This document shows positions 2,923 to 28,500 of a stretch of DNA of 64,000 nt, one piece after another; position 1 is the first letter of the stretch; each line of letters begins with the position of its first letter. The notes below the pieces were generated by a model. The model saw only the letters and a program-made list of their open reading frames with translations. It did no database searches and was not told the origin of the DNA. This stretch comes from a virus. The stretch is from positions 1 through 64,000 of the IMG/VR virus record IMGVR_UViG_3300001533_003062. One strand, written 5' to 3'. The position numbers and the translations under genes are program-made.

Positions 2923-5900
2923 TTAAAATATAACTCTTTTTCTTAGAGATACCGTAGCATCTATTGCTGCGTTAGTATTTGTAGCCTCTAATTCATATAA
3001 GTTAGACCCATTGTAACTCACAAAAAGAGATACAAGCGGGTCTCCGTTTAGGTTAGGTGTAGATGATTCCGAACTCGTGAAATTCCCCGAAGCATCCACC
3101 GAAATGATGATAGTCCCGGACCTCACATACCAGGTACCTCCATTATTTACCTCTATCTTATAATCATAGGTAATGTTCCTAGAGGGGTAGTAACTTAAAT
3201 TAGAATCTATCACCGTAGTTGCTGAAGCGGGCGCACTTGCTACTATCTTTTTGGATATAGTATCGTGCAAGCCTGTTACTTTAATTGAATTTTGATATAA
3301 TGTACCGTTATCCAGTACCCCGAAAGAGGTACCCCTGCTCCCGGGTCCAGATCCGTTACCTATCATTAAAGAAGAAGCTGCGGACTCATCGGAAAGTAAC
3401 TGAGGTTCAATGTCATTGAATTTACCCAAAACTGTTTGATAGGGATATATTGCAGTCAAGCCCATACCTAAGGCTACAGAAGCAAAACTATAAACTGTAT
3501 TATTTATACCTATAGCTGCACTTGCTAATCCGATGTCCTGGTAAAGAGTAGGTATCTCATAAGATGCCCAGAATTTACTATTTATTATATCGGGATCCTC
3601 GTGAACCACTCTAAGTACTATATTCCATTCTGATCCATCATACACGGCGTAATCCCCCGAGGACACACTCTCATAACCCGGAACAGAAGTAGAACTCCCA
3701 GATCCCGTAGTGAAGTCCACAAAACCGTCCTGAGTAGCTACATAAGTATCTCCTGAAGTGCCTACCCCATCTATCAAAGTATTGGTCTGGGGATCCCATA
3801 AAATTCCGGGGTTCCAAGGTTGTCTTGCAGTAATAGCCGGAAGAGACCCTATACCTCCATTTTGTATAGTATTCCCAACACCCACAACTATAGAAGCCCT
3901 GCTACGTGCTGTATTAGATATACCCACAGCTAGAGTATTCTCAGCTAAACCTCCCGCTTCTATATCGCTCCCATTTATGGTATAATCCCCTACTAAATTC
4001 CACTCACCTAGGACGTAAGAACCCGTAGACGCTAAAACATTCATGTTACCTACAACAAAAGAATGATCTCCTGATTCCGTTAAAGAGATACCAGTACCTA
4101 TTAAATTGCTGTAACCGTTTACTATTGAATTATTTGATACAAGGGTGTTTTCAGTTCCGGATATAAAATTATTACCGGAACTGGCGATCTTGAGCACATT
4201 ACTATTCCCACTAACAAAACTGTTATTTGGCCCCGTAATAATGTTGTCAGATCCCGTAACTATATCTCCGCGACTATCTCCAGAAATAGTGTTATGATAA
4301 CCCATCGCTAGACAACTAGAAGCGTTTCCTATGATATTATAACTACCACCTATAATATTACTAATGGATATATTACCTGTGGTAAAGAAATGGTTAGTCC
4401 CTACTACTAAACAATTGAATACCGTGGCGGTACTTTCAAAAATGTTACCGTTACCCGTCAAAATCGTAGAATAAACAGTACTACCCGTTGCCACCACATT
4501 AGCTACTCCGAATAAAGCCGAAAATCTAATATCCGAACTCTGCTCTACTATCAGAGTATTACCTACCACTAAAATATCTACGCCTGATTTTATGCTATTT
4601 TGATTACCTGAAACAATAGAAGACCAACAATCAGCAATATTACCTACACCGCCTAATAAAGTACCGTTAATAACCCCGCTGGAGGATTGAAGGGTTCCTG
4701 TGCTCTCTAAAGAGTTCTGTCCCCCGTATACAAAACTATTAAGGGTTTGTCCTCCGTTTGTAAATATTTGGTTATCTGTGCCGAATAAAGCTAAGCCCCC
4801 AGACCCCCAGGCATATCCCATGGTTCCCGGGTTACTGTAATTATAGGTAGAAGGATCTCCTGTCCCTATATATAATCTTTGGCCTACAGCTATATTGGTC
4901 CTAAAACCAAAAATATAGTTTTCTTCTCCTACTATAATGGACCACGACGCATTGCTGGCATTACGCTGACCCGACACTACCGAGCCTATACCCACATTTA
5001 TATTCTCGGCACCCATAGTTGTATTAAAACCTTCTCGTGTCCCAAAAGAAGAAATGATGGTATTTATGCTTAATAGCCGGGTTATAGTATTCTCAATAAG
5101 ACCACTATTGTTTACGTTATAGTGCGTTTTCACGTCGGAGACTGTGGATAACCCTGTAAGGTCTATACTACTTATATTGTAAGCACCAGATATTAAAGAA
5201 TAACCTCCGACAGATATATTATTATTACCCACCACGACTGTTCCTACAGGTCCTATAGCTGTAGGACCTATTTTATTACTTTCCCCTAAGGCAACACTTC
5301 CCACAGCATGTACGTCGTTATCAGAACCACCCCCTATAAAGTTATTGTAACCTGTCTCAGTGTTACCATACCCGAATACAACAGACTCAAAACCCGCTAC
5401 AGAGTTCCCCGAACCTGCAGAAAAAGAGCCCTCTCCCGTTGCAGTGTTGTTATACCCAAATATGGCAGAGAACGGACCTGATATTGTGTTCCCAGAACCT
5501 GCCGAGAAAGTAGCATCCGCAGTCAAAGTATTATTGTAACCGAAAACCGCTGAAAAAGAACTGCTTCCAAAGGTATTCTGAGAACCTATATCAATAGAAT
5601 ATTGATAAAAATTTCCATAAATAAAAGGTGCGTAAGCTCCCTCCGGGTGAGATATAATCAGGATACCCGAGGCATCAGTACCTAAGCCCGCTCCTCCGTT
5701 TTCGCCTATGATAACACTATTAGATACATTTACAAGAGTAGGTGCGACATCAGCACCTATTAAAATATTTCCATAAGCTTTTTCTAATAGCTTAGCAGCG
5801 TTGCTTCCGCTTATTACATTATTACCCCCTATTAGCTCTCCTAAGCTCGCTGCGTTATCGCCAGTTATAGTATTACCACTACTCCTAAGAAGCCTACCAG

Positions 5901-7431
5901 CAAAAGCTCCTGTTATGGTGTTATTATCTCCAATTGGTGTGGTATATGAATTTAATACCGTGCGGATAGGATCTCCTACCGCTATAAAATTAAGTACGGG
6001 TTGTGGTGGATTAGCACCCTCTGAATAAGTACCAGATATCCAGTAGTACCCGTCTATTATTACAGTAGGAATTATAATAGGGATATTAAGATAATCACTG
6101 TACAAGGACGTATCGGGAGGTATTAAGGTACCTGACCCCTCATCAAAGAAACTGATGTAGGCACCGTCATTTACCTGTATAGTGCCATCAGGAATAACGG
6201 CTATAGCTCCTAACCATTTTGATGGGAAAGAAAACGCGGTAATAGCTGCATCACCATCACCCGCTATTACTCCAGCTAAATCTATTTTTAGGATACTAGA
6301 ATTAGCCCCATCACTATCACTCGCATATAAAAAATCAGAGGAATCTATATTACTGTTACCAAATCCAGAAGCCCCAAATTTTAAACCCAAAAAGCTATAA
6401 GTAAAATAGCTATTACCGTTAGAGTACTCTGTAAAAGTCTCCGTCGAAGTATTAAATCTTAGTAAACCATCGCCTAATCCGTATTGGTTTCCGTCGTGGA
6501 TTAGCCATATATTATCGTTCGAGTCTACAGCTATTGAACCTTGATTAAATAATATATTAAGTACAGGAAAGGTGCTTATTACTTCCTTATTATCGGGGTC
6601 TAACTTTACTAATAGACCGCTACGTGGAGCTATCCACGTCAATACCCACATATTTCCGGAAGAGTCATTAACAAACCAAAAAGGTTCACCGTATGTATTA
6701 TTAAGTTTACCCCAAGAATTAGTCTCTTTTTTAAAATAGTAAAAACCTCCGGGACTTAATGCCCATGGGACACCGTTGCGGTCCATCCCACCGCTTAAAA
6801 AATATCTTTCGATCCTATTTCCGTCAGATATTTCATTAATACTATAGAAAGTCAAATCTTTAGTCCGGACATTGTACCGATACATCCCAGAGCCTATCGG
6901 TGGGGTCCCCCAAGGAAAAATCCATACATTACCATCTAAGTCTTCCATAATGGATAAAGCCAAACCCGCATTTAGTAACACACGGGAGGTAACTACAGTA
7001 GAAAAAATACCATCACCAGAATAGGTACCTAATAACGTATTTCCACTCTGTACCGTTATACTGTCTCCGGCATAAGCACCTATAGCAGAGGTATACTTAC
7101 CTGTGGTAATAGACCTCACCGCATAATAACCTAAAGAAGCATTATAGAGTCCGTCAGGACCTGATGTATCGATTATATTAGAACCAGAATCTTTACCCCA
7201 GAATATGTTCTTACCTTGACGATCTTGTATTGTAGCAAGCTCTATATAATCCCCATAAGATCCCTCAGAATTACGAAAAGCTACTCTCCAAACAGGAGAC
7301 CCCTCTACTAAGTCATCATCTCTTTGTATGGCATACTGATCCTTCTTCAGATTCAAGGGATTACCATTATCGGACAATAACGATTTACTGTCTCTTATAT
7401 GCTTTATATGTCTATTAAAAGTCTCTGCCAT
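2923..7431 (-). CDS. Giant fibre/adhesin: beta-propeller plus YadA-like beta-roll repeats
   Basis: 1502 aa. Residues 1-110 look like a virion attachment domain. Residues about 110-150 already show YadA-head-type repeats (TTGKYTSAIGAYAGDS). From about 160 to 490 come propeller blades with DxxGNVWIF, DRNGVPWAL, DSSGNMWVL and DSNDNIWLI, the pattern of two-component-regulator or Vgb-type beta-propellers. From about 495 to 1200 are dozens of 'S.VFGYNNT..G..SFSAGSGN' repeats, as in the left-handed beta-roll head of trimeric autotransporter adhesins. The C-terminal part (FGVLDNGTLYQN) matches how phage fibres with such heads end. It is probably a trimeric receptor-binding fibre. It closes the adhesin operon before the terminator at 2850. 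Confidence 0.85.
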   Translation of the reverse strand: MAETFNRHIKHIRDSKSLLSDNGNPLNLKKDQYAIQRDDDLVEGSPVWRVAFRNSEGSYGDYIELATIQDRQGKNIFWGKDSGSNIIDTSGPDGLYNASLGYYAVRSITTGKYTSAIGAYAGDSITVQSGNTLLGTYSGDGIFSTVVTSRVLLNAGLALSIMEDLDGNVWIFPWGTPPIGSGMYRYNVRTKDLTFYSINEISDGNRIERYFLSGGMDRNGVPWALSPGGFYYFKKETNSWGKLNNTYGEPFWFVNDSSGNMWVLTWIAPRSGLLVKLDPDNKEVISTFPVLNILFNQGSIAVDSNDNIWLIHDGNQYGLGDGLLRFNTSTETFTEYSNGNSYFTYSFLGLKFGASGFGNSNIDSSDFLYASDSDGANSSILKIDLAGVIAGDGDAAITAFSFPSKWLGAIAVIPDGTIQVNDGAYISFFDEGSGTLIPPDTSLYSDYLNIPIIIPTVIIDGYYWISGTYSEGANPPQPVLNFIAVGDPIRTVLNSYTTPIGDNNTITGAFAGRLLRSSGNTITGDNAASLGELIGGNNVISGSNAAKLLEKAYGNILIGADVAPTLVNVSNSVIIGENGGAGLGTDASGILIISHPEGAYAPFIYGNFYQYSIDIGSQNTFGSSSFSAVFGYNNTLTADATFSAGSGNTISGPFSAIFGYNNTATGEGSFSAGSGNSVAGFESVVFGYGNTETGYNNFIGGGSDNDVHAVGSVALGESNKIGPTAIGPVGTVVVGNNNISVGGYSLISGAYNISSIDLTGLSTVSDVKTHYNVNNSGLIENTITRLLSINTIISSFGTREGFNTTMGAENINVGIGSVVSGQRNASNASWSIIVGEENYIFGFRTNIAVGQRLYIGTGDPSTYNYSNPGTMGYAWGSGGLALFGTDNQIFTNGGQTLNSFVYGGQNSLESTGTLQSSSGVINGTLLGGVGNIADCWSSIVSGNQNSIKSGVDILVVGNTLIVEQSSDIRFSALFGVANVVATGSTVYSTILTGNGNIFESTATVFNCLVVGTNHFFTTGNISISNIIGGSYNIIGNASSCLAMGYHNTISGDSRGDIVTGSDNIITGPNNSFVSGNSNVLKIASSGNNFISGTENTLVSNNSIVNGYSNLIGTGISLTESGDHSFVVGNMNVLASTGSYVLGEWNLVGDYTINGSDIEAGGLAENTLAVGISNTARSRASIVVGVGNTIQNGGIGSLPAITARQPWNPGILWDPQTNTLIDGVGTSGDTYVATQDGFVDFTTGSGSSTSVPGYESVSSGDYAVYDGSEWNIVLRVVHEDPDIINSKFWASYEIPTLYQDIGLASAAIGINNTVYSFASVALGMGLTAIYPYQTVLGKFNDIEPQLLSDESAASSLMIGNGSGPGSRGTSFGVLDNGTLYQNSIKVTGLHDTISKKIVASAPASATTVIDSNLSYYPSRNITYDYKIEVNNGGTWYVRSGTIIISVDASGNFTSSESSTPNLNGDPLVSLFVSYNGSNLYELEATNTNAAIDATVSLRKRVIF

Positions 7432-7449: not shown

Positions 7450-8430
7450 CTATAACTCTGTAGAATCCTGTATATTTATTTCTTCATCATCAACAGTATC
7501 CTGCCAATTTATTTCATTAGGATCTGTGGTATCCTGTATAAAGTAAACATCCGTTACTGTTATATAACCTACCTTAACCTCGGTGCTTTCCAAGAGACCT
7601 GTCGATACCCTTAAAGATACCGTGTATGAGCCGTCATATAAATATGTGTGCTCTGGGTTCTGCTCCGTAGAAGTATGACCATCCCCAAAATCCCAATACC
7701 ACTCACTTATTAATCCAGAGGTCCTGTCCGTAAATTGAACTATAAGAGGTTCGGACCCGAACCTAGGTTCTGCATCAAAATCTACCCTCAAAGACCTCTC
7801 TATCAATAAAGTAGGTATCGGCAGCCCATGGTCTCCAATAGGCCCCGTAGCACCTTGGGCACTCATCCCCGTGATACCTTGGACCCCGTCATAACCTTTT
7901 TGTCCCTGAACCCCAGTTGGCCCCTGTATCCCAGTAATTCCTGGGATACCTCTTATTCCAGTATCACCGGGTTCTCCATCAGGACCCATAAGGGTAAGGT
8001 TACCATAACCTTTATACTCTTCTATATCTTCTTTTCTAATCTCTTTTATGGCCTTTAGATCTTCAGAACCATCCTGTCTTAGACGGACCAAAACTAAAGG
8101 TACCTTACCTGATAAATCCGGAAAAGTCTTTATTTCGCCGAAAGATTTTTTATTAAAAGAGATACTAGGTATCACCTCTAACTTAGAGTTTTTATCTACT
8201 GCTATCAATACATAGAGTATATCATTAAAATGGTTAAAGATTCTTCTGGAACTCTTCCCCAAAAAATCGGATACAATCTTTTTTACATCTATTCTTATAT
8301 TAGGTACTTTCACCCAAAAGCCATTTACTATGGTAGACCCCCCTTTAATTAAAAGGGAGTTATCAAGGATCTTTCTATGATCCTCTTTCTTTGAGGTGAA
8401 GTCGTAATTTTTCTTTTGTATTAAGCCCAT
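7450..8430 (-). CDS. Collagen-like fibre protein with PKD domain
   Basis: 326 aa in three parts. Residues 1-145 form an N-terminal domain shared with the next protein upstream, containing GxWV and LRQDG (residues 117-121). Residues about 149-203 are Gly-X-Y collagen-like triplets (GPTGVQGQKGYDGVQG). Residues about 215-295 are a PKD domain with the signature WYWDFGDG, NPEHTYLYDGSYTVSL. A short acidic tail contains three 'WQDT/IQDT' repeats. Collagen-like stretches trimerise phage fibres, and PKD domains often mediate surface or glycan contact, so this is a receptor-binding fibre candidate. It follows the 216-aa paralogue after 27 nt. Confidence 0.85.
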   Translation of the reverse strand: MGLIQKKNYDFTSKKEDHRKILDNSLLIKGGSTIVNGFWVKVPNIRIDVKKIVSDFLGKSSRRIFNHFNDILYVLIAVDKNSKLEVIPSISFNKKSFGEIKTFPDLSGKVPLVLVRLRQDGSEDLKAIKEIRKEDIEEYKGYGNLTLMGPDGEPGDTGIRGIPGITGIQGPTGVQGQKGYDGVQGITGMSAQGATGPIGDHGLPIPTLLIERSLRVDFDAEPRFGSEPLIVQFTDRTSGLISEWYWDFGDGHTSTEQNPEHTYLYDGSYTVSLRVSTGLLESTEVKVGYITVTDVYFIQDTTDPNEINWQDTVDDEEINIQDSTEL

Positions 8431-10290: not shown

Positions 10291-10653
10291 TGTATAAACA
10301 AAAAACATATAACTCAAGTCAGACACCCTATTAGGCAAGAATTCAGGCACTGAAATTAAATTAGGACATGCCTCAAAAGCGTGACTCAAACCCACCAGTG
10401 AATTATCCCAACTAAGAACATCCGTTAGCGCTTCGTTAGAGTTATAGTTATAGTTGGAGATTATTGTTATACTGTAATCCCCCACAGATTGTATCTCTAT
10501 GTCATATACACCGTCCGAAGAATAAGTGTGGAACAAATTATTATCAACCGTCCCATCTTTCCAATCTACTACAAAAGAGCTACCTGTTAAATTCAACTCT
10601 ACCATAGTCCCAGTCATTAGGCTTGTGTCGTATCGGAGTATTAAATTAGCCAT
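10117..10653 (-). pseudogene. DUF285/BspA-repeat adhesin, N-terminal fragment of a frame-broken gene
   Basis: 178 aa. Residues 1-75 are a beta-rich N-terminal domain (MANLILRYDTSLMTG; DWKDGTVDNN..HTYSSDGVYDIEI, close to a PKD strand pattern). From about 105 come 25-residue DUF285 repeats ([36 protein letters not shown]). It stops at TAA 10119-10117, where the expected SFNGDIS has lost CGGA. Right after, another frame continues with intact repeats ([14 protein letters not shown] ... [18 protein letters not shown]). The start overlaps the upstream gene's stop by 8 nt (ATGGCTAA), so it is translationally coupled. It may still make a short repeat protein. Confidence 0.75.
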
Positions 10654-11710
10654 CTATTCCTAAACTCCTCTTATCTATCTCTAAAAGCTGACCTACCCAC
10701 TCATCCGAAATGTTAAGTCCAGCCTTAAATCTCCAATTATAGAGCTGAATACCCTGACCCGACTCATATAAATAAGGAGCCCATAGATTGCCTCCCCCAG
10801 GTCTCGAGGTCTCTCCGTGGGCTATGCTATATAAAAAACCGTCCGGTCCGAAACCATCTTCAACAGGTATCTCTATACCGTCCACTAAAAACCTCATAGT
10901 TCCGTCATTACTTACGCACATAAAAACCAAAGAATGCCAGTTATCGTCCGAAAAGTCTATCTTTTTTGTCTTATTTATGGCTTTTGTTTTTGCACCTTTA
11001 AATTCTAGCCTATAATCATTACCGTCCTTAAGTATTGAAAACTTAATAGAGTCCTCTGTATCTAAAACTATAGATTGCGGATCAGATACCACAAAAGGAT
11101 ACAAAGGGTTTCCGGACACACTAAATTGGGGCCTTCTGATCCAACCCATACATAAAAATTTATTGCACGTGTTATACCGTATAGGATCCCTTACCACAGA
11201 TTTGCTCTTACTATTTATATACGTCTCAGTGAAATCCCCAGGACCTGATATCACCACTTTTTGGGTAACACTAAAATACCCCCTAGAGGTATAGTCGTGT
11301 ATAGGTGAAAAATCATTAGAATTTACAGTATTATCTCCAAAATCCCAATCCCATGAATCTGCCAAATATCCTGAGGGTATCTCTGATTCATTTATAAATT
11401 GAACCGTATAACGGTCTGACTTCTTTGTTATTTCCGCCCTAAAATCAATTTTAAGACCCTTTATTAATTCAGGTTCTATCTCAACATGTGAATTACCGGA
11501 TGCACCTATTACCGTGAGAGCTACTGTGTGTACCCCGTAAGATCTATAGGTGTGCGTGGGATTCCTTAAAGTGCTAGTTTCGCCGTCTCCAAATTGCCAT
11601 AAAAACCCCACTATATCTTCATCATATAAAAGGTTAACGGCATTAAAGCTAACTTTAAAGGGTACCCTACCAAAGTACGTATCCGCATAAATATTAGCAG
11701 ATATTGCCAT
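10646..11710 (-). CDS. Fibre/adhesin protein: two PKD domains plus LamG-like domain
   Basis: 354 aa. PKD domain 1 spans residues 5-78 (FLWQFGDGETS, NPTHTYRSYGVHTVALTV). PKD domain 2 spans 85-168 (WDWDFGDNTVN, HDYTSRGYFSVTQKVV). Residues about 180-345 form a concanavalin/LamG-like beta-sandwich (ILKDGNDYRLEF, DNWHSLVFMCVSNDGTMRFLVDGIEI). Such lectin-like folds commonly bind carbohydrate. There is no signal peptide, as expected for a virion protein. The preceding gap (11711-11812) has GGAG close to the ATG. It lies in the adhesin cassette and overlaps the DUF285 gene by 8 nt. Receptor binding is inferred from domain content. Confidence 0.8.
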   Translation of the reverse strand: MAISANIYADTYFGRVPFKVSFNAVNLLYDEDIVGFLWQFGDGETSTLRNPTHTYRSYGVHTVALTVIGASGNSHVEIEPELIKGLKIDFRAEITKKSDRYTVQFINESEIPSGYLADSWDWDFGDNTVNSNDFSPIHDYTSRGYFSVTQKVVISGPGDFTETYINSKSKSVVRDPIRYNTCNKFLCMGWIRRPQFSVSGNPLYPFVVSDPQSIVLDTEDSIKFSILKDGNDYRLEFKGAKTKAINKTKKIDFSDDNWHSLVFMCVSNDGTMRFLVDGIEIPVEDGFGPDGFLYSIAHGETSRPGGGNLWAPYLYESGQGIQLYNWRFKAGLNISDEWVGQLLEIDKRSLGIDG

Positions 11711-12484: not shown

Positions 12485-13573
12485 TTACGGACCTATAACA
12501 TCTATTTCTTCATATCTGTATGACTCACCGTTTTCATTACTAACCTTTAGAGATACCACATAGGAGCCAGCTGTAAGATAAGTATGACTAGGATTACGCT
12601 CTACCGAAGTAAAGCCGTCTCCAAAATCCCATAGCCACTCTTTAGGAAAAAGAATAGATTCATCTATAAAAAAAACTTTCAAATTATCTGATACGACCGA
12701 GAAAAGAGCTCTAGGCCTCTGATTGAACCTTAACCAACAAGATATAGCGCCTGAGAAGGGAAGATACTGATCTTCTCTATACTCCGAGATACCTCCCGCA
12801 TAAGTAACCTCATGTGCAGAACCTACTACACCTATAGTTTTTTGAAATTTAGAATCCTGTATACCGGTAACAGGTTCCGATCCGCCTATCCACCCTGTAT
12901 AACCCCCAGTATCATCCGCATAAAAAGTACAGTCTCTCTCATAAGGGCTATTATCTATTACACCCTTTCTATTGCTTTCAAACCCAACATCTAATAGATA
13001 GGTATAATCAGGACCTAAGCCAGTCGTACCCTGGATACCCTGATAGCCGTCAAGGCCTATTCCGGTGATACCCTGGTAACCCGTCTCTCCCCGTACACCT
13101 ACGGGGCCCGTCAGACCTTGATAACCTTGAGGACCTGTTATGCCCGGATAACCCTGAAGGCCTTGTGAGCCCTTAACTCCCTGGATAAAGTCCGTAGTCA
13201 CCGTAAAAGTCGCCATCTCTGAAAACTCCCTGAACTCGACTACTATGAAACTTCCCAATTCCTGCTTTAAAAGAAACTGGGATATAGGAAACACATTAGG
13301 CTTAGCCTCTGTATTTACAAAATCTACCCTATTTTTGTATTTACCTAATTGATCGAATATAAAGTTACCATCTGATACATCATAATAGACATTAACTACC
13401 GAGTACATATCCTTATCCACAGGCAGCTCAAAAAAGTTATTTTTGAATAAGGGAATCTCTAGATTATTCAGGCTCAACACCCTATTATTATATAATAGGT
13501 TACCCAGACTCACAGTATAGGCTATACCATAAGGTCCTTGCTTTACGGATATCTTGTTATTACTTTTTCCCAC
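12485..13573 (-). CDS. Collagen-like fibre protein with lectin-like remnant and PKD domain
   Basis: 362 aa. Residues 1-128 form an N-terminal domain ending TFTVTTDFI. Collagen-like Gly-X-Y triplets cover 131-187 (GLQGYPGITGPQGYQGLTG). Residues about 195-285 resemble the first half of a LamG-like domain (LLDVGFESNRKGVIDNSPYE, FSGAISCWLRF). A PKD domain covers 288-355 (WLWDFGDGFTS, NPSHTYLTAGSYVVSL). The lectin fold appears to stop where the PKD begins, as if modules had been joined by recombination. It is the first of the small-fibre genes after the 1491-aa baseplate protein (6-nt gap), so it may connect to the baseplate. Confidence 0.8.
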   Translation of the reverse strand: MGKSNNKISVKQGPYGIAYTVSLGNLLYNNRVLSLNNLEIPLFKNNFFELPVDKDMYSVVNVYYDVSDGNFIFDQLGKYKNRVDFVNTEAKPNVFPISQFLLKQELGSFIVVEFREFSEMATFTVTTDFIQGVKGSQGLQGYPGITGPQGYQGLTGPVGVRGETGYQGITGIGLDGYQGIQGTTGLGPDYTYLLDVGFESNRKGVIDNSPYERDCTFYADDTGGYTGWIGGSEPVTGIQDSKFQKTIGVVGSAHEVTYAGGISEYREDQYLPFSGAISCWLRFNQRPRALFSVVSDNLKVFFIDESILFPKEWLWDFGDGFTSVERNPSHTYLTAGSYVVSLKVSNENGESYRYEEIDVIGP

Positions 13574-13579
13574 TTTTAC

Positions 13580-16500
13580 CTAAACTCTTACTAAGGGCCT
13601 GTTATTTAATTTATATATAGAAATAGCAGTCTCAGGTATCTCTCCTATTTCTTCTGTAGTATATGTCTCTAGCTCCTCATAATATCCAGTGACATTATCC
13701 GCCCGGGATTTATAAACCTTTGAAAATAAGATAAGAACGAGTTCCCCTCTAACAAAAGGTTTTACCATGTCGGACCTTACCCTTCCTAACATAGGTATAA
13801 AAACTTTCCTGGGGGTGCTGTTGGTTAGGGCCTCACACTGGAATACTATATCTTCCGAAGCCTTACCATAAAAGGGTCTACCGAGCCTATCTCCGACATT
13901 ATTTGGTTCTGATAAGGTTAACTCTCCACCAAATTTTCGAGATATAATCGCGGGCATTTTCACAAAACCCGAATTTATACTAAAATTGCTAAAGTCTAAA
14001 TCATCTACATTAGAGAAAATATTATCGCTTTTAACATCGTCGTCATTCACAGCTATATGCTGCACAGGTATCTCATAAGGCAAGCCTTTGATCAAAGGAT
14101 CAGCACCCGTACCTAGGTTAGATATATAGACAAAATCCTCACTCTTAACTATATCTACATATAGCTTACTGGGCAGTCCTCTTACCGACTGGTAAGAGAT
14201 ATAATTATAGTAAACATCCAACTCAGAACCTTCCCCCAATAAGGGAAGCGTATTCAATTTCACTAGAATAGGTACTAAAATATTACCCGATAATGCGTAA
14301 TTCTTCACGTCTAGATTTATCCTTACTATGCTCGTCCCCAAACCTTCTATAGAGGACACCGGCAATACCTTATAAAAATCTTCCGAAGTCGCCTTATTCC
14401 ATATATACCATTGATTATCATTGGGGCTCGTCCTAAAAGTGCCCAAACCTAATACAACACCTCCCTCTAGGCCCCTAACTACGCTACCCACCTCTAAATC
14501 AATAGTTACAGAGGTTGCAGCATCTCCATCGTTTATTACTAAGGGATAAAGCACTGAAGTATAGAGACCCTCTATACCTCTTGAAGATGAATTATAGTTA
14601 CCGACGAAAGGGGTTCTTTGCGCTTGAGCGTTCTCACCCTTATTTGATACAGTGACATTTAGGTCCGTATTTACTGTCTGAAAATCACCTGTTCCAGTAT
14701 ACCCAAAGACCGTAGGGTCTGTAGTCACATCCAAAACTACTTCAATTATGGAATTTTCAGGTATTCTGAAAGCCTCATCCAAGTATATGACTATATTATC
14801 TTTATTGTACGTCCCGTCATCGTTTCGTTCTCGGTCTCTTATTACCATCCCAGAGTCAAAGTTAGAAGCTAATTTATACTCCGAACCGTTGATATTTTTT
14901 ATCTCAGAAACCCCGAATACGAAATAACCATTAATATTTTTAGGTACTCTAATAATATTAGTAGAAACTGACTGGTTGTAAAAATAGTGATACCTAACTA
15001 GAGTACTTCTATTCTGCTGATTTTCAAATTTTCTTACACTCTTCCTATAATCAGTAGAATTTTTATTTTCAGTCCCAGCATAAGAGTACAATAAACGATC
15101 ATCTATAGTATTCAGTATAGAAAGGGCTGAGTAGGTCTCCACATAATCCGGATAACCTGTTACTCTTTCTTCTATAGATTCTGATGATAAGGAATTTAGG
15201 GTAGACTTTATACCTTTGAAATAATAAACATTATTTAGGCTACCAACGTCCGCATTGTACCTTACCGAAAGGGGCCTACTAGGAACTTTTCTGAGACCTA
15301 CTCCACCGTAATCTATATACGTCGCCCTCAACCTAATAGTATCTGTGGCGCCTTCCCCGAAGTTAGTGAGAAGGGCATCCTCAGAAACTATAAAAGAAAC
15401 TGTTTTAGTACCTAAACCCTTAAACTCTCCCGAAACTACCCCTATTTCCGTATAAGGGTCCTCACCCTCTGCTAAAGGCTGCTCTTTTCTTATAACTCTG
15501 CTAGCGCTGTAAAAAGATGAGTCATTGTGATATAGGCCACTATCAAGAGTGCAAAAAGTTAAGTCATCCTCCGTGGGTATTATAGCAGGATCCAATATCT
15601 TATCTATCGTTACTAATTTAGCCCTAGAGCTAACAAGGCCCCTGACTACTGATTGTATACCAACAGTACCCGTATAAGTATCAACATTCATCAAGGTAGA
15701 ACCATACTGGGCGCCTCTTTCGTCTCGATCGCTAAGATTTGTGCTAAGAGTGTTAGAAAGTAATTTATCTAGATTATTCTCTAATAATCTACTATAAGAT
15801 TTAACATTAACAAGCTTCCTCAAATCTATGATTTCGTCACTTGTGACCTCTTCGTAAAAGGATCCATCGGGCCTAACTGAATTAAGCTCGTAAAAAGTAG
15901 ATCCATTAATATTTGTGTCTTTATCGAATGGGGAAGAATTTTTCCTATTTATAATAAACATAGGTATAGCCCAGGAGTAACCATCAACGGTATTCCGGCA
16001 CCGCGCTCGCCACAGACCATAGTCACCGTTTTCAGTGCCCATATTTATATAATTGTATTCCCCGGCTTGTAGCTCACCTGAATTAGGTCCAAGACTATAA
16101 ACAAAGTTCTCCCCTAAACCTGAATCCGGGTGATCAAAAGGATTTATCCCATCTACTATTCTTATCCTATACTGTATCTGAACCCTTTGAGTAGTCTCTA
16201 CACCTACATTAGGATCGACGATATTGTCCGGTAAAAAACTCTCAGCTTCGGACAGCACATTCCCCTCAGGATATATCCTACCAGAAGACCAAGAAACCAA
16301 GTCCGTACCCTGTAATTCGCCTACAGGGCCCTCTAATGTATCTTTATATTTGATAATAGAACCTATAGAGCCCGAAATCCAACCATTACTAATATCTATA
16401 AATGAGGAGCCTCTAAAATCATAGCCCTTACCTATATCTGATATTTCCCATTTTGCACCACTATTACCCGAGACAAGTATAGTACCTTTGTCTCCTACTA

Positions 16501-18055
16501 TCCAAGCTTTATCTTCCACAGAAAAATTAATAGCAACAGTATCTGCGCCAGAAATAACACCCGCCGTAGGTTTTATATCTTTTGTCAAATCAGCTGATAT
16601 ATACCCTAAGGTCGTATTAAAAACTCGCGCCTCTATTCTATTAGGGGCGTTTATGTCACTCGCTAAATAGGGGCTTCTTATGCTATTTATAGCATTCATT
16701 AAGGATTCAGAATCCGAATATAAATTAAGGTTCAGCACATTTTGGTATGTTATACCGTCAGAGGATCCCTTATACTTAAGAACTAAGGAATTCGGGTATT
16801 CTGGTGGAGATATAGCATAACTAGCATTATTGAAAAAACCCTCAGAACCCTCATATATCTTAATAGAAAACTGTACTGGGAATTTATTCACTAAAGAGAT
16901 GCTATTTAAATTTATCTCTTTAGCGGGATAAATATCTTGCAACGATGAAAACTTATCTCCATTAACTACCCTATTTGAAACATTAGCCCAGTTGAAACCA
17001 CTATCCGCAGTTTTCAGGATCAAACCTTTATCACCTACAATAAGACCGTCGTTGTAATTATAAAAAGCTATTGAATTTAAATTACTTGTTACGAGGGCCT
17101 CTGTGCTGGGATCTACTACTTTTTGCCTCACCCAAGTTAATCCGCCGTCTCTGGTTATCACTAAGATTCCTTTAGCACCCACAGCCCAACCTAGTGCAGA
17201 ATCTATAAAGAAAACAGAATTTAAGTTATCTACGACATTAGAGGACTTACTAGATACGGTAAAAGTTTCGCCGTCCGTAGACCTTAAAATAGTACCATTA
17301 TCTCCCACAATTACTACGGTATTACTGTTTATTATAAAGATACTATTAAGTTTGTCCTGGAGGTCGTTATCTAGGATATACCAATTACCTCCCCCATCAA
17401 TGGTCTTTATAATGTAACCTTTATCGCCTACGGCATAGCCTATAGCTCTATTATAGAATTTTACGGCATTGAAATTGACTTTTACGGGCGTATCCTGACT
17501 GACCCAGCTGGACCCCCCGTCGATAGTGCTAAGTATAACACCATTATTTCCCACAGCCCAGCCCACATCAGAATCCAACATGTGTATGTCTTTTATGTCG
17601 CTTATTTTAGAGATATCCTGAGGTTTAGAAAAAGCGCTTCCACCTTCCGAGGTAATCAGAGACCTCCACACCTCTAGGAAAACGCCGTCTACCCTAGACC
17701 CGGACTTTAGTTCGAAATCTTCCAAATTTATCTTATTAAGATGCTTTATAGGGGTACCCGTATTCGTCACGTATATAGGCCACCCATTTACCAGAGCCAC
17801 TTCAGGCTTTGTCCCCTCAGGATTCTGGGTCATAAAACTATTGCTAAGATCTTTAGAAGTATAGTGGGGCCTATAGCTCAACCATCCCGAGGGTAAATCC
17901 GCCGTTACCTTCTGAGAAAAAATATTGTTTAGTTCTTGAGCTAAATTAAGTTCAGAATCTAAAGGAGGATTACCTTTTTTAAAAACAACTTTATCGAAGG
18001 CGTAACTCAAGCTATCTAATTGAGATGCTACGTTTTCTAAAATATTCTTTGCCAT
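13580..18055 (-). CDS. Large baseplate-region protein with inserted YCF48/BNR-type propeller
   Basis: 1491 aa. Residues 1-135 and from about 610 onward resemble a phage baseplate/tail family (DUF4815-like): VDGVFLEVWRSL near 128, then IQYRIRIVDG near 630 and GLWRARCRNTVDGYSWAIPMF, with SVRYNADVG later. Between them, about 150-575, sit six or more YCF48/BNR-type blades (DVGWAVGNNGVILSTIDGGSSW, IGYAVGDKGYIIKTIDGGGNW, VVIVGDNGTILRSTDG). They include a non-propeller insert near 390-500 with a flagellar-hook-like 'SLMNAINS' strand. The gene follows baseplate J by 14 nt and precedes the fibre cassette by 6 nt, as expected for a protein linking wedges to fibres. The family assignment is from memory of motifs, so moderate. 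Confidence 0.7.
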   Translation of the reverse strand: MAKNILENVASQLDSLSYAFDKVVFKKGNPPLDSELNLAQELNNIFSQKVTADLPSGWLSYRPHYTSKDLSNSFMTQNPEGTKPEVALVNGWPIYVTNTGTPIKHLNKINLEDFELKSGSRVDGVFLEVWRSLITSEGGSAFSKPQDISKISDIKDIHMLDSDVGWAVGNNGVILSTIDGGSSWVSQDTPVKVNFNAVKFYNRAIGYAVGDKGYIIKTIDGGGNWYILDNDLQDKLNSIFIINSNTVVIVGDNGTILRSTDGETFTVSSKSSNVVDNLNSVFFIDSALGWAVGAKGILVITRDGGLTWVRQKVVDPSTEALVTSNLNSIAFYNYNDGLIVGDKGLILKTADSGFNWANVSNRVVNGDKFSSLQDIYPAKEINLNSISLVNKFPVQFSIKIYEGSEGFFNNASYAISPPEYPNSLVLKYKGSSDGITYQNVLNLNLYSDSESLMNAINSIRSPYLASDINAPNRIEARVFNTTLGYISADLTKDIKPTAGVISGADTVAINFSVEDKAWIVGDKGTILVSGNSGAKWEISDIGKGYDFRGSSFIDISNGWISGSIGSIIKYKDTLEGPVGELQGTDLVSWSSGRIYPEGNVLSEAESFLPDNIVDPNVGVETTQRVQIQYRIRIVDGINPFDHPDSGLGENFVYSLGPNSGELQAGEYNYINMGTENGDYGLWRARCRNTVDGYSWAIPMFIINRKNSSPFDKDTNINGSTFYELNSVRPDGSFYEEVTSDEIIDLRKLVNVKSYSRLLENNLDKLLSNTLSTNLSDRDERGAQYGSTLMNVDTYTGTVGIQSVVRGLVSSRAKLVTIDKILDPAIIPTEDDLTFCTLDSGLYHNDSSFYSASRVIRKEQPLAEGEDPYTEIGVVSGEFKGLGTKTVSFIVSEDALLTNFGEGATDTIRLRATYIDYGGVGLRKVPSRPLSVRYNADVGSLNNVYYFKGIKSTLNSLSSESIEERVTGYPDYVETYSALSILNTIDDRLLYSYAGTENKNSTDYRKSVRKFENQQNRSTLVRYHYFYNQSVSTNIIRVPKNINGYFVFGVSEIKNINGSEYKLASNFDSGMVIRDRERNDDGTYNKDNIVIYLDEAFRIPENSIIEVVLDVTTDPTVFGYTGTGDFQTVNTDLNVTVSNKGENAQAQRTPFVGNYNSSSRGIEGLYTSVLYPLVINDGDAATSVTIDLEVGSVVRGLEGGVVLGLGTFRTSPNDNQWYIWNKATSEDFYKVLPVSSIEGLGTSIVRINLDVKNYALSGNILVPILVKLNTLPLLGEGSELDVYYNYISYQSVRGLPSKLYVDIVKSEDFVYISNLGTGADPLIKGLPYEIPVQHIAVNDDDVKSDNIFSNVDDLDFSNFSINSGFVKMPAIISRKFGGELTLSEPNNVGDRLGRPFYGKASEDIVFQCEALTNSTPRKVFIPMLGRVRSDMVKPFVRGELVLILFSKVYKSRADNVTGYYEELETYTTEEIGEIPETAISIYKLNNRPLVRV

Positions 18056-18069
18056 TTTATATTTCCTTT

Positions 18070-21000
18070 TTATAGTCCTCTTTTAATATTCTCTTCTTTT
18101 AGTATAATAACATTACTTAAGCTATCTTGGTCTACATCCAGGTACTCTATTTCCGAAGTAACTATATCGCCTACTATATTCTCGTTCTCCGGGTAAGACA
18201 CATAATAGGATGCCTTATAATTCTTAGATTGCGGGGGGCTGCCATCAAAAGTACTTACTAATATTCTCCCGTCCGAAAATATATAAGAACTACCGGCTTT
18301 TTTAGACACTAAATAGGGCTCAGGGACTAAATCTAAAGGTACATTATCCTCATAAACACCTCTGAATAAATTATCGGGGCCACCGTTATCACTTGTCATA
18401 TGTTCTAAAACACTGTTTACACTTACGTACGAGGGCACTCCCTTACCGCTTAATTTTTGGTAAAGCTCGAAATCTACACTACCTAAATTCTCTAGAGGGA
18501 TAAAAGACCCGTTCCTTTTAGACATCTTTGTCAAAGGGATTTTAACATCTGAAACACCCTCTACACTAGATACTACTTTAACTAGGGAGCTTTGTGTCAA
18601 AGTTTCTCCCATCTTCATCCTAGATAGATGGTTGTTTATTGCTGTCTTTATCCTAGATAACAATAAGCTATTATTAACAGCTGCATCCGCTGTTATTTTT
18701 TTATAAACGGTAAACCCTAAATCTATATAGTTAAGCGTTGCTTGCTTAATCACGGTATCTGCGCAACTATGCTTCATATCGTCTACAGCCTCTTGTGACG
18801 CACTTACCAATCTATTATATCTATAGGTTACTTTGAAATTCATACTAGCCGTATAGGACACACTAACCCTTGAACCAGGTCTTATCTTACTATTAGGTAA
18901 TAACTCTATTTCAGTCCTTATCGAGGAATTACCTAAAATAACTTTATAATCTACATCCTCTAAATAGGTAGTATCCCCGTCTAATGAAGTTATCACTATA
19001 GTAGATCCCTCAACCCCCTTACTATTAAGGGGGGTAGAAGACGCCAATACTAAATCTACCTCTTCTCCCTCTATATCTATAAACTCATTTATATCTTCAT
19101 TACCTGTAAAATTGAATCTTAGCGCATTCTTAGCTATAGAGGACTCTCCTATATCTAAAGGATCATCCGTTTTAACTAGCTCATATAATTCTGGATCTAC
19201 CTCATTACCTTCAGCATCTTCTACGGATACTATTGAGTCAACAGGCGGGTTTTCAAGGATAATAGAATTAGAACTTCTATACTTATACGACATTTCAATT
19301 ATGTCAAATGTAGACATACCTATCTCATTATTAATAGCATTTTTTTCTAAAATTACGGAATCTCCATCACCCACTATCTCTATACCTGTTATATCGTAAT
19401 CTCTACCCCGCGTTGCGTTACGGACAGAAGATACACTTACTATGGGGCTTTCAGAACTTACATTATTATTTATAGTCTTTAGCCTCATTTCTTCCGAGCT
19501 CACAATTTTTAACTGCTCCGATATATTATTACCTATAACATCCTTTGGGTACTCGTACTTAAAAGACACCCTATCTATAGTTTGTACTATTTCACTTCCT
19601 TTTATATAGATATCTACCTTACCACCTATGTGCCTCTTTTCCGTCTTATCATAATCCCTCAGCATGAGCCTATCCCCCGCCTCTTCTACCCTAACTTGCT
19701 CTACCCCGGGCACACTTAAGACAGTGTTAGCATATCCTCCTGGAGTCCCCGCATCTAAAGATATACTACTCAGTTTAATTCTATCCGCTAAGTGCTGGTT
19801 TGTTTCCTGATTAGAACCCCCCGTGATAGCAGAATCATTAGTTACCTGTACCGAGGGACCTAAGGCACTAGAGCTGGTTAAAAAACCTGAAGGAACGTTA
19901 CCCACCGTGCCGGATTGAATAGCCTCTACCTCTGCTTGGACCTCATATCTTTGCTCTACAGGATTATAGTAATAAGAGATATTACTTACATCCATCAAAC
20001 TACTACTTACCGTCCTAAAAGCGGTTGACCTTATGCCTAGTCCTATGTCTTCCGCAGAGTTTATGGTTATACCTGAGGGTATTCTAATATCCGACTCAGG
20101 CCTTATTTTAGTATAAAATGTGGCGAAACCCTTTGCCCTTGTAGGAGGCCTTCGCACCAAGCCTCTATTGGCTGCTAATTTATCAAATTGTTCGTCTATT
20201 AAAAGTTGCAGGGCATCATTAGTAGTTAACTGTAGCGCATCCCTAAGCCTAATCTTATTTAAGTTACTCTCTACAGGATCACTGACTCCGTCTCCATCTG
20301 CATCATCGAATGCTACTAAAGTATTAATAGAGTTGCAGGTGAATACGAAATCCTGTATTAAATAAAATTTCTCGAACTCTAATGAGATAGGGTCTAGCAT
20401 ATCACGGAAAACGGAACCTCCGGAAGTATTTATATTCTTATTATTACTTACGAGGTCTTTAGTCAAAGAGGTGAGTACGGATTCTCTACTTCTTAGGGGG
20501 AGGTTTTTAGTATCTAAAGAATAGTCTATAAATTTAGCCTCTTTTTCTGTAGAATAAAGACTCTCCACAGAGGTATTTAGTACATTGTCAAAGGCTATTA
20601 CTGAGACTACAAAGAAATAACTATAGTTATTATCTAAGGTATCTCCGTCCGCTAAAAAAACATTTGGGAAATCATTATTTTGTATGAGTTTACTAATTAC
20701 TTCTTTATTAAAAGTGAAAGTATAGTATTCTTTCTCGACATTTTTAGTTTTTATAGTCCTAACATTAGTCCCCGAGGCAGAGTCAACATAGAAGCTATCC
20801 GTAAGAATCTCTTCTAAAGTTTCTTTTTCATCTATCTCCGTTACAGAGGTATTATTCATCCTTACATAGCCTCTACTACCCCCTCCGGATATGTTAGAGA
20901 CATAAAAATTTATACCCGCAAACTCCGCATTATTGCTGAACCTAATAGAGTCCTTAGATACCTTGAGTTTTATTTGGTTTTTAGACCTAAGGACCTCTAA

Positions 21001-21441
21001 GGTGGAGGTAGATAGAACCGAGGGGCTCACAGTATCTTCACTGATGATTTCTACATTGATGCTAACTTCAGCACTTTCATCCTCTATATATTTAGAAAAC
21101 CGATTCTTCTTAACAGTCTTGAAAACAATTAAAGCAGACGTTCCTACGCTAAAATTAATGATCCCTCTAGTATCAAAACTCCAGGGTATCTCTTCTATTA
21201 CATTACTATTACTCCCAACAGTAACGCCCCCATCAGAAAAGCTAGTGAAGTTGCTAGTTACCCCATTTCTCATTATTTGTACCTTATGAAGTACAGATAT
21301 ATAAAAGTTATCAGATTCCTCCTCTATTACGGAAGGTACTGATCCTGAGATAATTTGATTTAAACTATCCGTATAATATTTATTATCCTCTCCAGCTACC
21401 CAATTAGTCATAGGGTATAAAACTGTAGGTGCCGCTATCAT
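18070..21441 (-). CDS. Baseplate J-like wedge protein
   Basis: 1123 aa. The central part (about residues 440-720) has the baseplate J/gp6 pattern: RPPTRAKGFATFYTK, then IRIPSGITINS, EAIQSGTVGNVPSGFL, TGGSNQETNQHLADRIKLSS, GTPGGYANTVLSVPGVEQVRVEE. C-terminal residues about 880-980 carry the usual 'ATLNYIDLGFTVY ... RIKTAINNHLSRMKMGETL'. The protein is much longer than simple J proteins, with a 400-residue N-terminal extension of beta domains. The J fold joins wedges into the ring around the hub. The start overlaps the gp25-like gene's stop by 4 nt (ATGA), so the two are coupled, as gp25 and J genes usually are. Confidence 0.88.
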   Translation of the reverse strand: MIAAPTVLYPMTNWVAGEDNKYYTDSLNQIISGSVPSVIEEESDNFYISVLHKVQIMRNGVTSNFTSFSDGGVTVGSNSNVIEEIPWSFDTRGIINFSVGTSALIVFKTVKKNRFSKYIEDESAEVSINVEIISEDTVSPSVLSTSTLEVLRSKNQIKLKVSKDSIRFSNNAEFAGINFYVSNISGGGSRGYVRMNNTSVTEIDEKETLEEILTDSFYVDSASGTNVRTIKTKNVEKEYYTFTFNKEVISKLIQNNDFPNVFLADGDTLDNNYSYFFVVSVIAFDNVLNTSVESLYSTEKEAKFIDYSLDTKNLPLRSRESVLTSLTKDLVSNNKNINTSGGSVFRDMLDPISLEFEKFYLIQDFVFTCNSINTLVAFDDADGDGVSDPVESNLNKIRLRDALQLTTNDALQLLIDEQFDKLAANRGLVRRPPTRAKGFATFYTKIRPESDIRIPSGITINSAEDIGLGIRSTAFRTVSSSLMDVSNISYYYNPVEQRYEVQAEVEAIQSGTVGNVPSGFLTSSSALGPSVQVTNDSAITGGSNQETNQHLADRIKLSSISLDAGTPGGYANTVLSVPGVEQVRVEEAGDRLMLRDYDKTEKRHIGGKVDIYIKGSEIVQTIDRVSFKYEYPKDVIGNNISEQLKIVSSEEMRLKTINNNVSSESPIVSVSSVRNATRGRDYDITGIEIVGDGDSVILEKNAINNEIGMSTFDIIEMSYKYRSSNSIILENPPVDSIVSVEDAEGNEVDPELYELVKTDDPLDIGESSIAKNALRFNFTGNEDINEFIDIEGEEVDLVLASSTPLNSKGVEGSTIVITSLDGDTTYLEDVDYKVILGNSSIRTEIELLPNSKIRPGSRVSVSYTASMNFKVTYRYNRLVSASQEAVDDMKHSCADTVIKQATLNYIDLGFTVYKKITADAAVNNSLLLSRIKTAINNHLSRMKMGETLTQSSLVKVVSSVEGVSDVKIPLTKMSKRNGSFIPLENLGSVDFELYQKLSGKGVPSYVSVNSVLEHMTSDNGGPDNLFRGVYEDNVPLDLVPEPYLVSKKAGSSYIFSDGRILVSTFDGSPPQSKNYKASYYVSYPENENIVGDIVTSEIEYLDVDQDSLSNVIILKEENIKRGL

Positions 21442-22184
21442 ACTATACCTAACCTTTGTCTAAATTGACTTAATTCTAGTAACTGACTATATTCTATAGT
21501 CTTCCCACTCCTAGCAGTGAAAGATAGGGTCACCTCAAATACAGAATAATCTCCAGTTTCTTCCACAGATATACCTAGGGTAGTCCCGTATAGCTCTCCA
21601 GGAGTCATAACCCTCCCAGCGGCTATCTGCTGCTCTTGCAGGTCTATTAGCTTATTAACCGCGGTATTTATCTGATTTGTTACCCTAGAATTAATTAAAT
21701 CTATATCTGCTACTTTAGTACCTATAAGACTCTGCAAATCGGTCCCCATCCAATTATGGAAAGTATTAGAACCTATTTGAGTCACTATAAACTTTTCTAC
21801 CTGCTGAACTAAATAACCTTCGTCTTTGACCAGAGCTACGTCCCCGTCGGTGGATATCCTTATGTCATCTACGACACTGACCCCCAAACACTTAGGACAT
21901 CTTTCAAGTACCGTTAAATAATCCACTTCTACTAAAGGAAATTGGTTCCTTATCCTTCTTTTCATACGTATAAGTCTTTTTGGTACATAATTCCTATTAT
22001 CGCTAATAGTTATTATCTCGTAATCCTCTTTAGCCACCTCTGAGCCATCCACATAAACCTTACAAGAAGTCTCAGAAGCTATAGGATACACTAATAAGAT
22101 ATCTTTCCTATTAGCTCTCAGCGTAGCCTTCTCCCGATAAATACGATGATCGCATATATTTTGTATTTTAAAATCTTGAGACAT
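21438..22184 (-). CDS. Putative gp25/GPW-like baseplate wedge protein
   Basis: 248 aa. Residues 1-105 contain beta strands ending in a CPKC motif. Residues about 125-248 have the layout of the gp25/GPW lysozyme-like wedge family: KFIVTQIGSNTFHNWMGTDLQSLIG (pieces of), RVTNQINTAVNKLIDLQEQQ, then a YSVFEVTLSFTARSGK strand. In T4, gp25 sits beside the J-like protein in the wedge; here the gene overlaps the J gene by 4 nt, which supports the call. A catalytic role is unlikely, since wedge members are structural. A motif TATTAATAG lies 16 nt before the ATG. Confidence 0.68.
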   Translation of the reverse strand: MSQDFKIQNICDHRIYREKATLRANRKDILLVYPIASETSCKVYVDGSEVAKEDYEIITISDNRNYVPKRLIRMKRRIRNQFPLVEVDYLTVLERCPKCLGVSVVDDIRISTDGDVALVKDEGYLVQQVEKFIVTQIGSNTFHNWMGTDLQSLIGTKVADIDLINSRVTNQINTAVNKLIDLQEQQIAAGRVMTPGELYGTTLGISVEETGDYSVFEVTLSFTARSGKTIEYSQLLELSQFRQRLGIV

Positions 22185-25583: not shown

Positions 25584-28500
25584 TCAAACCCCCGTGGCCC
25601 CTCCGATATTAGAGGCATCCTCTTCATCCTCCTCTATCTTTTTAGTTAGATATTTGACCTTCTGGTCACAGCCTATCTCTCTATGGAATTTAAGGTAAAG
25701 CCACAGATATTTATTAGAGACTAATTGCTCGTTTACAATACCCTCCCTTATCTGACCTACCCTCTTAAATTTGATGTATCTTAGAAAATTCTCGGTACCT
25801 AAGCCTAAAGGATAATCGTTATAGATACCATCCTCTTCTAAGGCCATCTCGCGCTTTAAGTCCTCTCCCACATTCTCATACTGTAGGGGGGCTATTAACC
25901 TACTAGGAAGATTAGACATGAATACATTTTTTAGCTGTTGTTCTTTATTGTAAAAGTAATCCACGGTCTCCTCTTCAGGCGTATAATCTATCCACGGCTT
26001 AGACATCCTTTTCTTAGCACTATTTAGAAGTATAGTGAGATCGTAATCGGATACCTGGAAATACCGGATATCCCCCATCACACCAAAATAAGCTTTAAAG
26101 GCTTTATTTTTGTACATACTGACCTCGGGGGTCCTCGTGATACCTAATTTACCAAAGCCCCTCCTTACTAAAGGTAATATATTTATACTTAATAAACCCT
26201 CGTCATAGTCTCCCCTAAAATTCCGTACAAATTTTTCAAGGTCTCTGTCTAGGTTAGAGGACCGTGTCTCCCCTGAGGTAACCGTAAATTCCGTGGAGGA
26301 CACGCCATAAGTACCCGTATTATCTTCGTACTCCATGTGGAGTAAATCTAAAGCTAATACAGGTCTTAAGTCCCCGTCTAAATCTAAATAGCTTTCGATT
26401 TCTTGGTAGTCCGGTTTAGGTATCAAAAGCTCCGCAGGAAGATCACCATATCCCTCATGCACCAACTTAGATGTTAGTCCTGTAAAGGGCTCCTTAGAGT
26501 TTATATCTTCAATTATATCGAAGAAGTTACCGTTTAGAACAAAATTATATTCGGTGATGTATTTCCCATACATTACATCCCCAAAAGGCTCGAACCCAGA
26601 GGTGCCCGTAAGATTCAATGCAGGACTTGTATTGTATGCGGGTTTAATCACAGAGGCTATGAAAAAAGGTTCAAATGAGAAATTATTTAGATGTCTCCTT
26701 GAGTTTATAACACTAACCAACCCCTCAATAGTATATAAGGGAGTATTATAGGATATATTCAGAGGATAAACAATATTTCCGCTGTACCTAACAGTAGCAG
26801 TTAAGGTAATTCTATCTCTGCTAGAGGGTACACTATAGCTAACATCCGTCACCTCCCAAGCAGAACCTGTCACAGATCCCGAGCTGGCTATTATACTTAG
26901 ATCAAAAGCAGGCGCAGTTGTGAATACTTCTTTCTCCAAAGTAACAGGGGATACACTAAGACTTCCAGAACCGCTTAGTAAGTCCGTGCTGCTGCCGTCT
27001 CCTCCAAGTGCTAGTACCGCGTTAAACATAGGAGTCCCTGTCTCTGGTATAGTCTCTAAATTTATAGCCCCTACTAATTCAGATATTGTGTCATAAGACG
27101 TATTATTAAATAAAAAATCCTGCTGGTAAGTTAGTTCTGTAGTGTAGTTACCTGTAAAGGATAAAGTTTTACCCACATCATCTACTCGATATTGTAGATT
27201 TGAAAAATCGTAAAAATCTGAATTAGGCACCACAGAAAAAACTTTAGCATTAGTCTTAATATCTAAACTACTAGACCTATAAACGGGATAATCTTCTATA
27301 GTAGTATTATTTAGCTTGTCCGGAAGAGACTCATTAAAACCGGGTGTCAGGGGGTTATTTGATTTTTCATTTATCCTAATCTCGGTCTCCTCTGTGGGAG
27401 TTAAACCCACTACCTCATCTCTCATCAAATATATTTTATCTAGCTCTGATTTATATAATTCAGTTTTCTGGTCAGGTAAATAGGTATACTCGAAATACCC
27501 TCTATTGCCGTCCTCACTAATCTTACCGTCTTCACCCCTTTTAAAGTCCCTGTCCCACCTTAGGTTACAATAGAAATAAGCGTTAGAATCCGAACCAACG
27601 CTACCAGAGCCTGATAATTGACCGTTTATCCTATCTAGAAGTTCGTTCAAGGTCTCGCCCTCTATAGATCGGCCTTCTGGCCTTTCGCCTGATGACGCTA
27701 AAGGTATACTTACGTCTACGTTTAAACTTTTAAACCTTATCCAATTATTTTTTATTTCAAAAAATCTACCCTCCTCTTCATCTGGTTCATCCCAACAGTA
27801 GACGTGAAAAGGAGTAATATCTACGGAATTTCCAAAATTACCCGAATCAGCCATGAGTTCCTGAGCGCGCCCAGGTGATGAGGCGAAAGCAAAATTTTCA
27901 GTATCTCTGACACTATAATTATCTTGTACTACGCTTAAGTCTACGCTACCACCAAAATCTGATCGAGAGACCTGTAGCTTCCAACCGGCTATATAGGCCT
28001 TAGAATCTGTATAACTCCCATTTAAATTAAGAAGCTCCCCGTCAACACCTTTGACTAGGGATACCTCGTCCGTCCTATAGAATTTCCCCTCACCGCCATT
28101 ATCCGATTTAGAAAATATCCTAAAATATTTCCTAACAGGCTCATAGGATACCTTCAGATTCTGAGTGTCTAAATCAAGCACCCAATCTCCGCCTACCGCA
28201 GTGGCCTCGTAATGTCCGCCAGAATTTTCCGGATCTTCCCCAAAAATATAGGCTCCAGGCACTACCTCACCTTTTTCATTTGTATATTCCCCCCGCCATT
28301 GCGCATTATTTATGGCCTCTATTAAGTCCCTTATCTTTTTGTATTTGCCTAAGTCTAATTTTAATATGTACTTTCCGCCTTCCGCTTCCCTTCTTAATAG
28401 AACTATATTTCTCACTATTTTTGTGCTAGGCCTGTTTATAGGGACATTAGCCCTAAGTTTCTGGTATTCATCAGGGGTTATTATTGCTAAATTTGGGTCA

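Follow-up and report, generated by a model that had tools for sequence, protein, structure and literature searches.

A seven-bladed propeller inserted into a putative baseplate-anchor protein of large bacterial viruses

In extracellular contractile injection systems (eCIS), fibres are fastened to the baseplate by anchor domains; one of these, the shoulders-like DUF6519 or eBAP5, carries its own distinct insertion of 200 residues, and beta-propeller lectins are described there as binding modules of the eBAP3 fibres and not as inserts of the anchor (PMC12923769). Among phages, a relative of Twort protein TmpG, of the DUF4815 family, is present among the chains of solved phage baseplate structures (9euf and others). 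In the literature searched we found no account of a propeller set within the anchor domain of a phage baseplate. Here we describe a candidate for this arrangement, encoded within the first 64,000 nucleotides (the window) of IMG/VR record IMGVR_UViG_3300001533_003062, a 90,326-base virus record that is itself a fragment. With a probability of about 0.6, we propose that the product of the gene at 13580 to 18055 is an arm or fibre protein anchored to the baseplate, that the ancestor of one clade gained the propeller in a loop of the anchor domain, and that the propeller projects sideways.

Architecture of the protein and states of the join

The gene and the parts of its product were delimited as follows:

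13580..18055, minus strand: whole gene, putative baseplate-anchor protein of 1491 residues with inserted propeller; ATG start, continuous open reading frame (ORF)
17645..18055, minus strand: N-flank, residues 1-137, predicted first half of the anchor domain, ending in the strand VDGVFLEVWRS (profile comparison; model strand 121-134)
17660..17677, minus strand: LEVWRS, residues 127-132
16961..17605, minus strand: propeller blades 1-5, residues 151-365 (Pfam, model, structure comparison, motifs)
16520..16924, minus strand: inner domain, residues 378-512, placed between blades 5 and 6 and made of strands and one helix (alignment, model)
16304..16519, minus strand: propeller blades 6-7, residues 513-584 (model, structure comparison, motifs)
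15665..16291, minus strand: C1, residues 589-797, predicted second half of the anchor region and the part conserved most widely across the family
16154..16180, minus strand: QIQYRIRIV, residues 626-634 (model strand 622-634)
13583..15664, minus strand: C2, residues 798-1491, C-terminal part

A preliminary description had placed the segments LEVWRS and QIQYRIRIV about 500 residues apart, separated by blades of the YCF48/BNR type that are themselves interrupted near residues 390-500. From the start of the first segment (residue 127) to that of the second (residue 626) we measured 499 residues, and the nature of the intervening sequence was borne out as well. PSII_BNR (YCF48, PF14870) was the sole strong Pfam match of the ORF (E 4.1e-28, 99 bits against a gathering cut-off of 27); a sortilin-Vps10 match remained below its cut-off, and a PHROG scan of the 1491-residue protein returned no match. 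Seven blade motifs were located at residues 169, 210, 251, 293, 341, 521, and 562, and the interruption corresponds to a domain of approximately 130 residues (about 378-512) that splits the propeller between blades 5 and 6. An AlphaFold2 model of residues 1-840, based on 37 aligned rows, had a mean predicted local distance difference test score (pLDDT) of 78.0 and a predicted template modelling score (pTM) of 0.56; most 10-residue blocks across the blades exceeded 85, and values fell below 50 at residues 138-150 and 773-840. In a Foldseek search with this model, YCF48 structures ranked first (5ojr_B, E 1.9e-13, TM score 0.72 on the target), and VIA-align superimposed the propeller on the designed seven-bladed 7bie_A with a Z of 31.1 over 279 residues at 2.3 A. 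As modelled, the propeller is complete, its seven blades forming a closed ring. In a subclade of relatives (L024, L028, L029, L033), blades 5 and 6 are separated by a different sequence, about 80 residues long, and one member (L033:4081-8490) carries a further insertion of this kind inside blade 6.

Among annotated phages, tblastn identified propeller-free flanks in Bacillus phage G gp211, Tunturiibacter phage Tunturi_5 gp247, and the 485-kb sequence LR745208. An alignment query composed of the window protein and these three relatives yielded the best 80 of 117 relatives on viral contigs, taken as 79 loci; a second query of the viral contigs yielded the best 80 of 183, and genome contigs contributed 5. 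No match was obtained in single-sequence scans of viral contigs with the C-terminal part or with the gp6-like neighbour, nor when plasmids were searched by tblastn for the N-flank. Profiles of the N-flank and C1, built from the window protein and 51 hand-chosen relatives with near-copies and truncated ORFs excluded, were run on 164 loci and recovered 168 ORFs with both flanks, 110 of them distinct; five further ORFs lacked an N-flank match, and each of these is cut by the start of its locus. BLAST relatives of C2 came from the propeller clade and, for the final portion of C2, also from the clade with a small insert described below.

The gap between the flanks is trimodal. It measured -5 to 10 residues in 67 of the 110 distinct relatives (no insert), 109-127 in 19 (a small insert of about 115 residues), and 398-499 in 24 (propeller), with no intermediate values; the profiles that define the join derive partly from the sequences they classify, but the three classes are nonetheless far apart. 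The two segments are thus normally adjacent, as had been anticipated. Most relatives lack the propeller, and the propeller variant sits within a group of large bacterial viruses. In a tree of 52 rows, calculated from 356 columns of N-flank and C1 with the insert excluded, the 17 rows with a propeller formed one side of a single branch (support 100/99) and the 12 rows with the small insert one side of another (100/100). Two changes are sufficient to explain this insert history, and the distribution of the propeller is compatible with one gain. Taken together, the Pfam match, the model, the structure matches, the tree, and the join classes sustain the earlier claim that a propeller was inserted into a pre-existing protein, and the variant is real and inherited. 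Mean identity of the window protein to nine close relatives was 64.6% in the N-flank and 61.3% in C1, compared to 49.5% in blades 1-5, 45.2% in blades 6-7, and 40.6% in the inner domain; the insert evolves faster than the anchor, yet it is not hypervariable.

The small insert has the fold of an insertion domain of tail sheath proteins (8kee_A, Z 11.3), which also occurs in T7-type tail proteins. It sits in the same loop as the propeller but in a separate clade, for example at residues 154-276 of L059:5146-8376, and weaker matches to its profile were obtained in three long insert-free relatives (L057, L067, L047); judged from sequence, this insert may be mobile. The idea that the inner domain of the window protein corresponds to it was unsupported (hhalign 2.9%, 21 columns at a shared helix motif); each of the two consists of strands and one helix in the models, which leaves kinship possible.

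Identity of the flanks and gene neighbourhood

When the N-flank of 110 relatives was compared by profile with the N-terminus of nine DUF4815 proteins, the result was 72% over 47 columns; with the two Gram-positive phage sequences alone, Twort TmpG and its counterpart of Bacillus phage BSP18, it was 66% over 82 columns. All such percentages are values for single comparisons. Controls with 40 column-shuffled profiles, one reversed profile, and six neighbour families did not exceed 0.4%. Subsets of DUF4815 scored lower (16% for cyanophage sequences only, 18% for the Ackermannvirus type). The insert-free relatives matched DUF6519 (four sequences) at 72% over 144 columns, with 40 shuffles at or below 0.2%. 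In this alignment the two segments singled out in the preliminary description have counterparts in DUF6519: FLEVW is set against YLDVW, and ETTKRVQIQYRIR against the DT.AR.Q..WQV segment. DUF6519 was in turn matched at 79% by the TmpG pair and at 7% by all nine DUF4815 sequences. These comparisons support a distant kinship of the N-terminal part to the anchor domains of DUF4815/TmpG and DUF6519/eBAP5. The label DUF4815-like, used in the preliminary description, therefore holds in the sense of a distant kinship of the anchor domain by profile. It does not hold at the level of the DUF4815 (PF16075) hidden Markov model (HMM), which matched nothing in the window's record, none of 26 relatives, and one of 32 N-flanks at E 0.026, below the cut-off. 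In the Pfam and PHROG scans, four of the 26 relatives matched phrog_1980 'tail fiber protein', with E 8.7e-10 at best, and a few matched other families.

Several results weigh against an anchor domain of this kinship seated in the baseplate. No Pfam or PHROG model matched the flanks of the window protein; the baseplate family match came from profile comparison with DUF4815 and DUF6519. The DUF6519 HMM matched none of eight records at E<=10, and the DUF6519 profile was built from four sequences only. Neither a profile of the N-flank nor one of the whole family retrieved anything credible from the solved chains. C1 alone had no significant match to DUF4815 (0.1-0.2%) or DUF6519 (4.9%), and the homology of the anchor thus rests on the N-flank and one strand. 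The pTM of 0.56 for the model of the window protein counts on the same side, as do the weak similarities of an insert-free model to baseplate structures (phi812 9eui_Q, Z 6.4; TssK 6n38_E, Z 5.2). TssK was dropped as a structural relative: its four entries scored Z 4.3-5.2, under the trust level of the tool, and a search of 198 genomes found no TssK sequences.

The assignment to a baseplate family, made in the preliminary description, is favoured by these profile kinships and by the gene neighbourhood. Genes for gp25-like and gp6-like proteins lie directly upstream in all 22 propeller loci (L012-L033), and in each of these the gene directly follows gp6, the position of gp7 in T4. The family PF23786 (Baseplate_wedge) was not among the Pfam matches of the window protein at E<=1. 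The neighbours in the window are:

18070..21441, minus strand: gp6/Baseplate_J-like wedge protein (Pfam PF04865, 7e-16; phrog_6, 2.5e-28)
21438..22184, minus strand: gp25-like sheath initiator, weak matches (PF10934, E 0.003; phrog_2669, E 0.0016)
12485..13573, minus strand: protein with collagen and PKD matches (Pfam), with a relative downstream in 13 of the 22 propeller loci

In the remaining nine propeller loci a collagen/PKD-type gene was unseen; three of these (L025, L027, L030) end before its place. Further PKD-domain proteins are encoded near this gene at 7450-8430 and 10646-11710 (minus strand); they include one that carries a collagen repeat and one that weakly matches Laminin_G_3. 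A protein of 1502 residues at 2923-7431 (minus strand) shows weak similarity to an ice-binding beta-roll (PF21300, E 2.6e-6, below the cut-off) and is possibly a long fibre. An ORF of 3565 residues without PHROG match occupies 25584-36281 (minus strand) among baseplate-type genes. In Tunturi_5 (L005:11283-16549), a protein annotated 'regulator of chromosome condensation' is encoded immediately after the insert-free family member; RCC1 is a propeller family.

At least nine of 27 propeller-bearing contigs also encode an insert-free copy with both flanks matched (L012/L060, L017/L053, L018/L054, L019/L075, L026/L045, L117/L066, L029/L142, L129/L143, and L022), and the contigs of L024 and L028 contain at least the N-flank of a plain copy. 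L017 and L018 are near-copies and many contigs are fragments, so this count is a lower bound. No second copy was present in the window's own record, a 90-kb fragment. With at least nine contigs encoding both forms, two types of anchor might be present on a single virion. A propeller copy and a plain copy, at L101 and L104, lie on two short contigs binned with one Candidatus Altiarchaeales genome (RBin_358); these are probably phage sequences binned by mistake, but the binning could be a hint at the host.

Possible roles of the propeller

We propose that residues 1-137 together with 589 to about 800 constitute the anchor, whose two strands would pair across the insert and which probably attaches the protein to the wedge of the baseplate, alongside the gp6-like protein. 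An ancestor of one phage clade would have acquired a complete propeller of the seven-bladed YCF48 type in the loop joining these strands. In such a propeller the first blade adjoins the last, and hence an insertion of this kind can leave the host fold intact. The propeller would then stand out sideways from the loop as a rigid binding disc, with the smaller domain held between blades 5 and 6. Its role is probably to grip the host surface or another part of the tail; the preliminary description had suggested that a propeller on the baseplate rim could bind sugars or another fibre. We favour contact with the host surface, because not all family members carry the insert, which is less conserved than the anchor and has a fold often used for binding. 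As a more tentative extension, doubtful in our judgement, the loop may be an exchange site at which large phages mount varied modules on the baseplate, the propeller being a host-recognition module carried on the anchor and not on a fibre tip.

Docking of another fibre is nearly as likely as contact with the host. The propeller may be a platform within the tail that holds a fibre, such as the downstream collagen/PKD protein, or braces the wedges, and that never meets the host; we regard this as possible, if short of an even chance. Consistent with such a platform, the collagen/PKD gene comes immediately after the propeller gene in 13 of 22 loci, and the propeller is moderately conserved and not hypervariable. 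However, no collagen-like neighbour was seen in six loci that extend past the gene (L022, L023, L024, L028, L029, and L033, the last with about 0.9 kb downstream), and this protein is thus not a general partner.

It appears unlikely that the propeller is a passive spacer, or a decoration, that binds no specific ligand. The junction does tolerate fillers, as it is empty in 67 of 110 relatives and holds the unrelated tail-sheath-type domain in 19, but all 24 other carriers share the position of the propeller, its blade motifs are conserved, and it was kept through the deep divergence of the clade. Very improbable is an enzyme of the sialidase or GH74 type that clears host polysaccharide: Asp-box motifs are present in the blades and Foldseek also matched GH74 xyloglucanases (6p2k_A, E 4.9e-12), but the sequence matches point to YCF48, a non-enzymatic propeller, and a single propeller is present here compared to the two of GH74 enzymes. 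A gene fusion or assembly artefact is refuted, since the same join occurs in 24 other distinct relatives from other contigs and the ORF is continuous.

Comparison with known systems

Under the preferred reading of a propeller borne on a baseplate anchor, the family would clearly exemplify the addition of a large domain within, and not behind, a baseplate-anchor domain. Its history would be readable in the join, which is empty, filled by a small tail-sheath-type insert, or occupied by a propeller with a nested insert of its own. A poorly annotated structural family of jumbo phages, phage G gp211 and relatives, would be tied to known baseplate-anchor families and become annotatable. If the propeller binds the host, a recognition module would be seated at the baseplate itself. 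Phage G gp211 and Tunturi_5 gp247 belong to the same family by both flanks but lack the insert, with gaps of -2 and 16 residues, respectively.

With DUF6519/eBAP5 the family shares an N-terminal arm, the FLEVW-type strand, and the T.R.Q strand, in the same order and close together. Insertion into a shoulders-like anchor domain has a precedent in eBAP5 (PMC12923769). In contrast, none of the four DUF6519 sequences has a propeller in the loop concerned, and the eBAP5 insertion of about 200 residues seems, judged by eye from the sequences, to lie in a different one. DUF4815/TmpG of Twort-like phages (PDB 9euf, 9eui, 9euj, 9euk) is likewise a baseplate protein, and 47 to 82 N-terminal columns align at 66-72%; however, the window family is under the Pfam cut-off throughout, and C1 is unmatched. 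The seven-bladed fold and the blade motif are shared with YCF48/HCF136, the photosystem II assembly factor of cyanobacteria and plastids, which is free-standing, whereas here the propeller is an insert in a phage structural protein. Synechococcus phage S-CAM9 encodes, directly after gp25 and gp6, a 'baseplate wedge initiator' in the gp7 position with YCF48-like repeats (36% identity over 170 residues); these repeats lie near the C-terminus of a protein of 3884 residues (about 3380-3650), and tblastn detected no homology to the flanks. Together with the beta-propeller lectins of eBAP3 fibres (PMC12923769), the S-CAM9 repeats indicate that propellers near baseplates have precedents.

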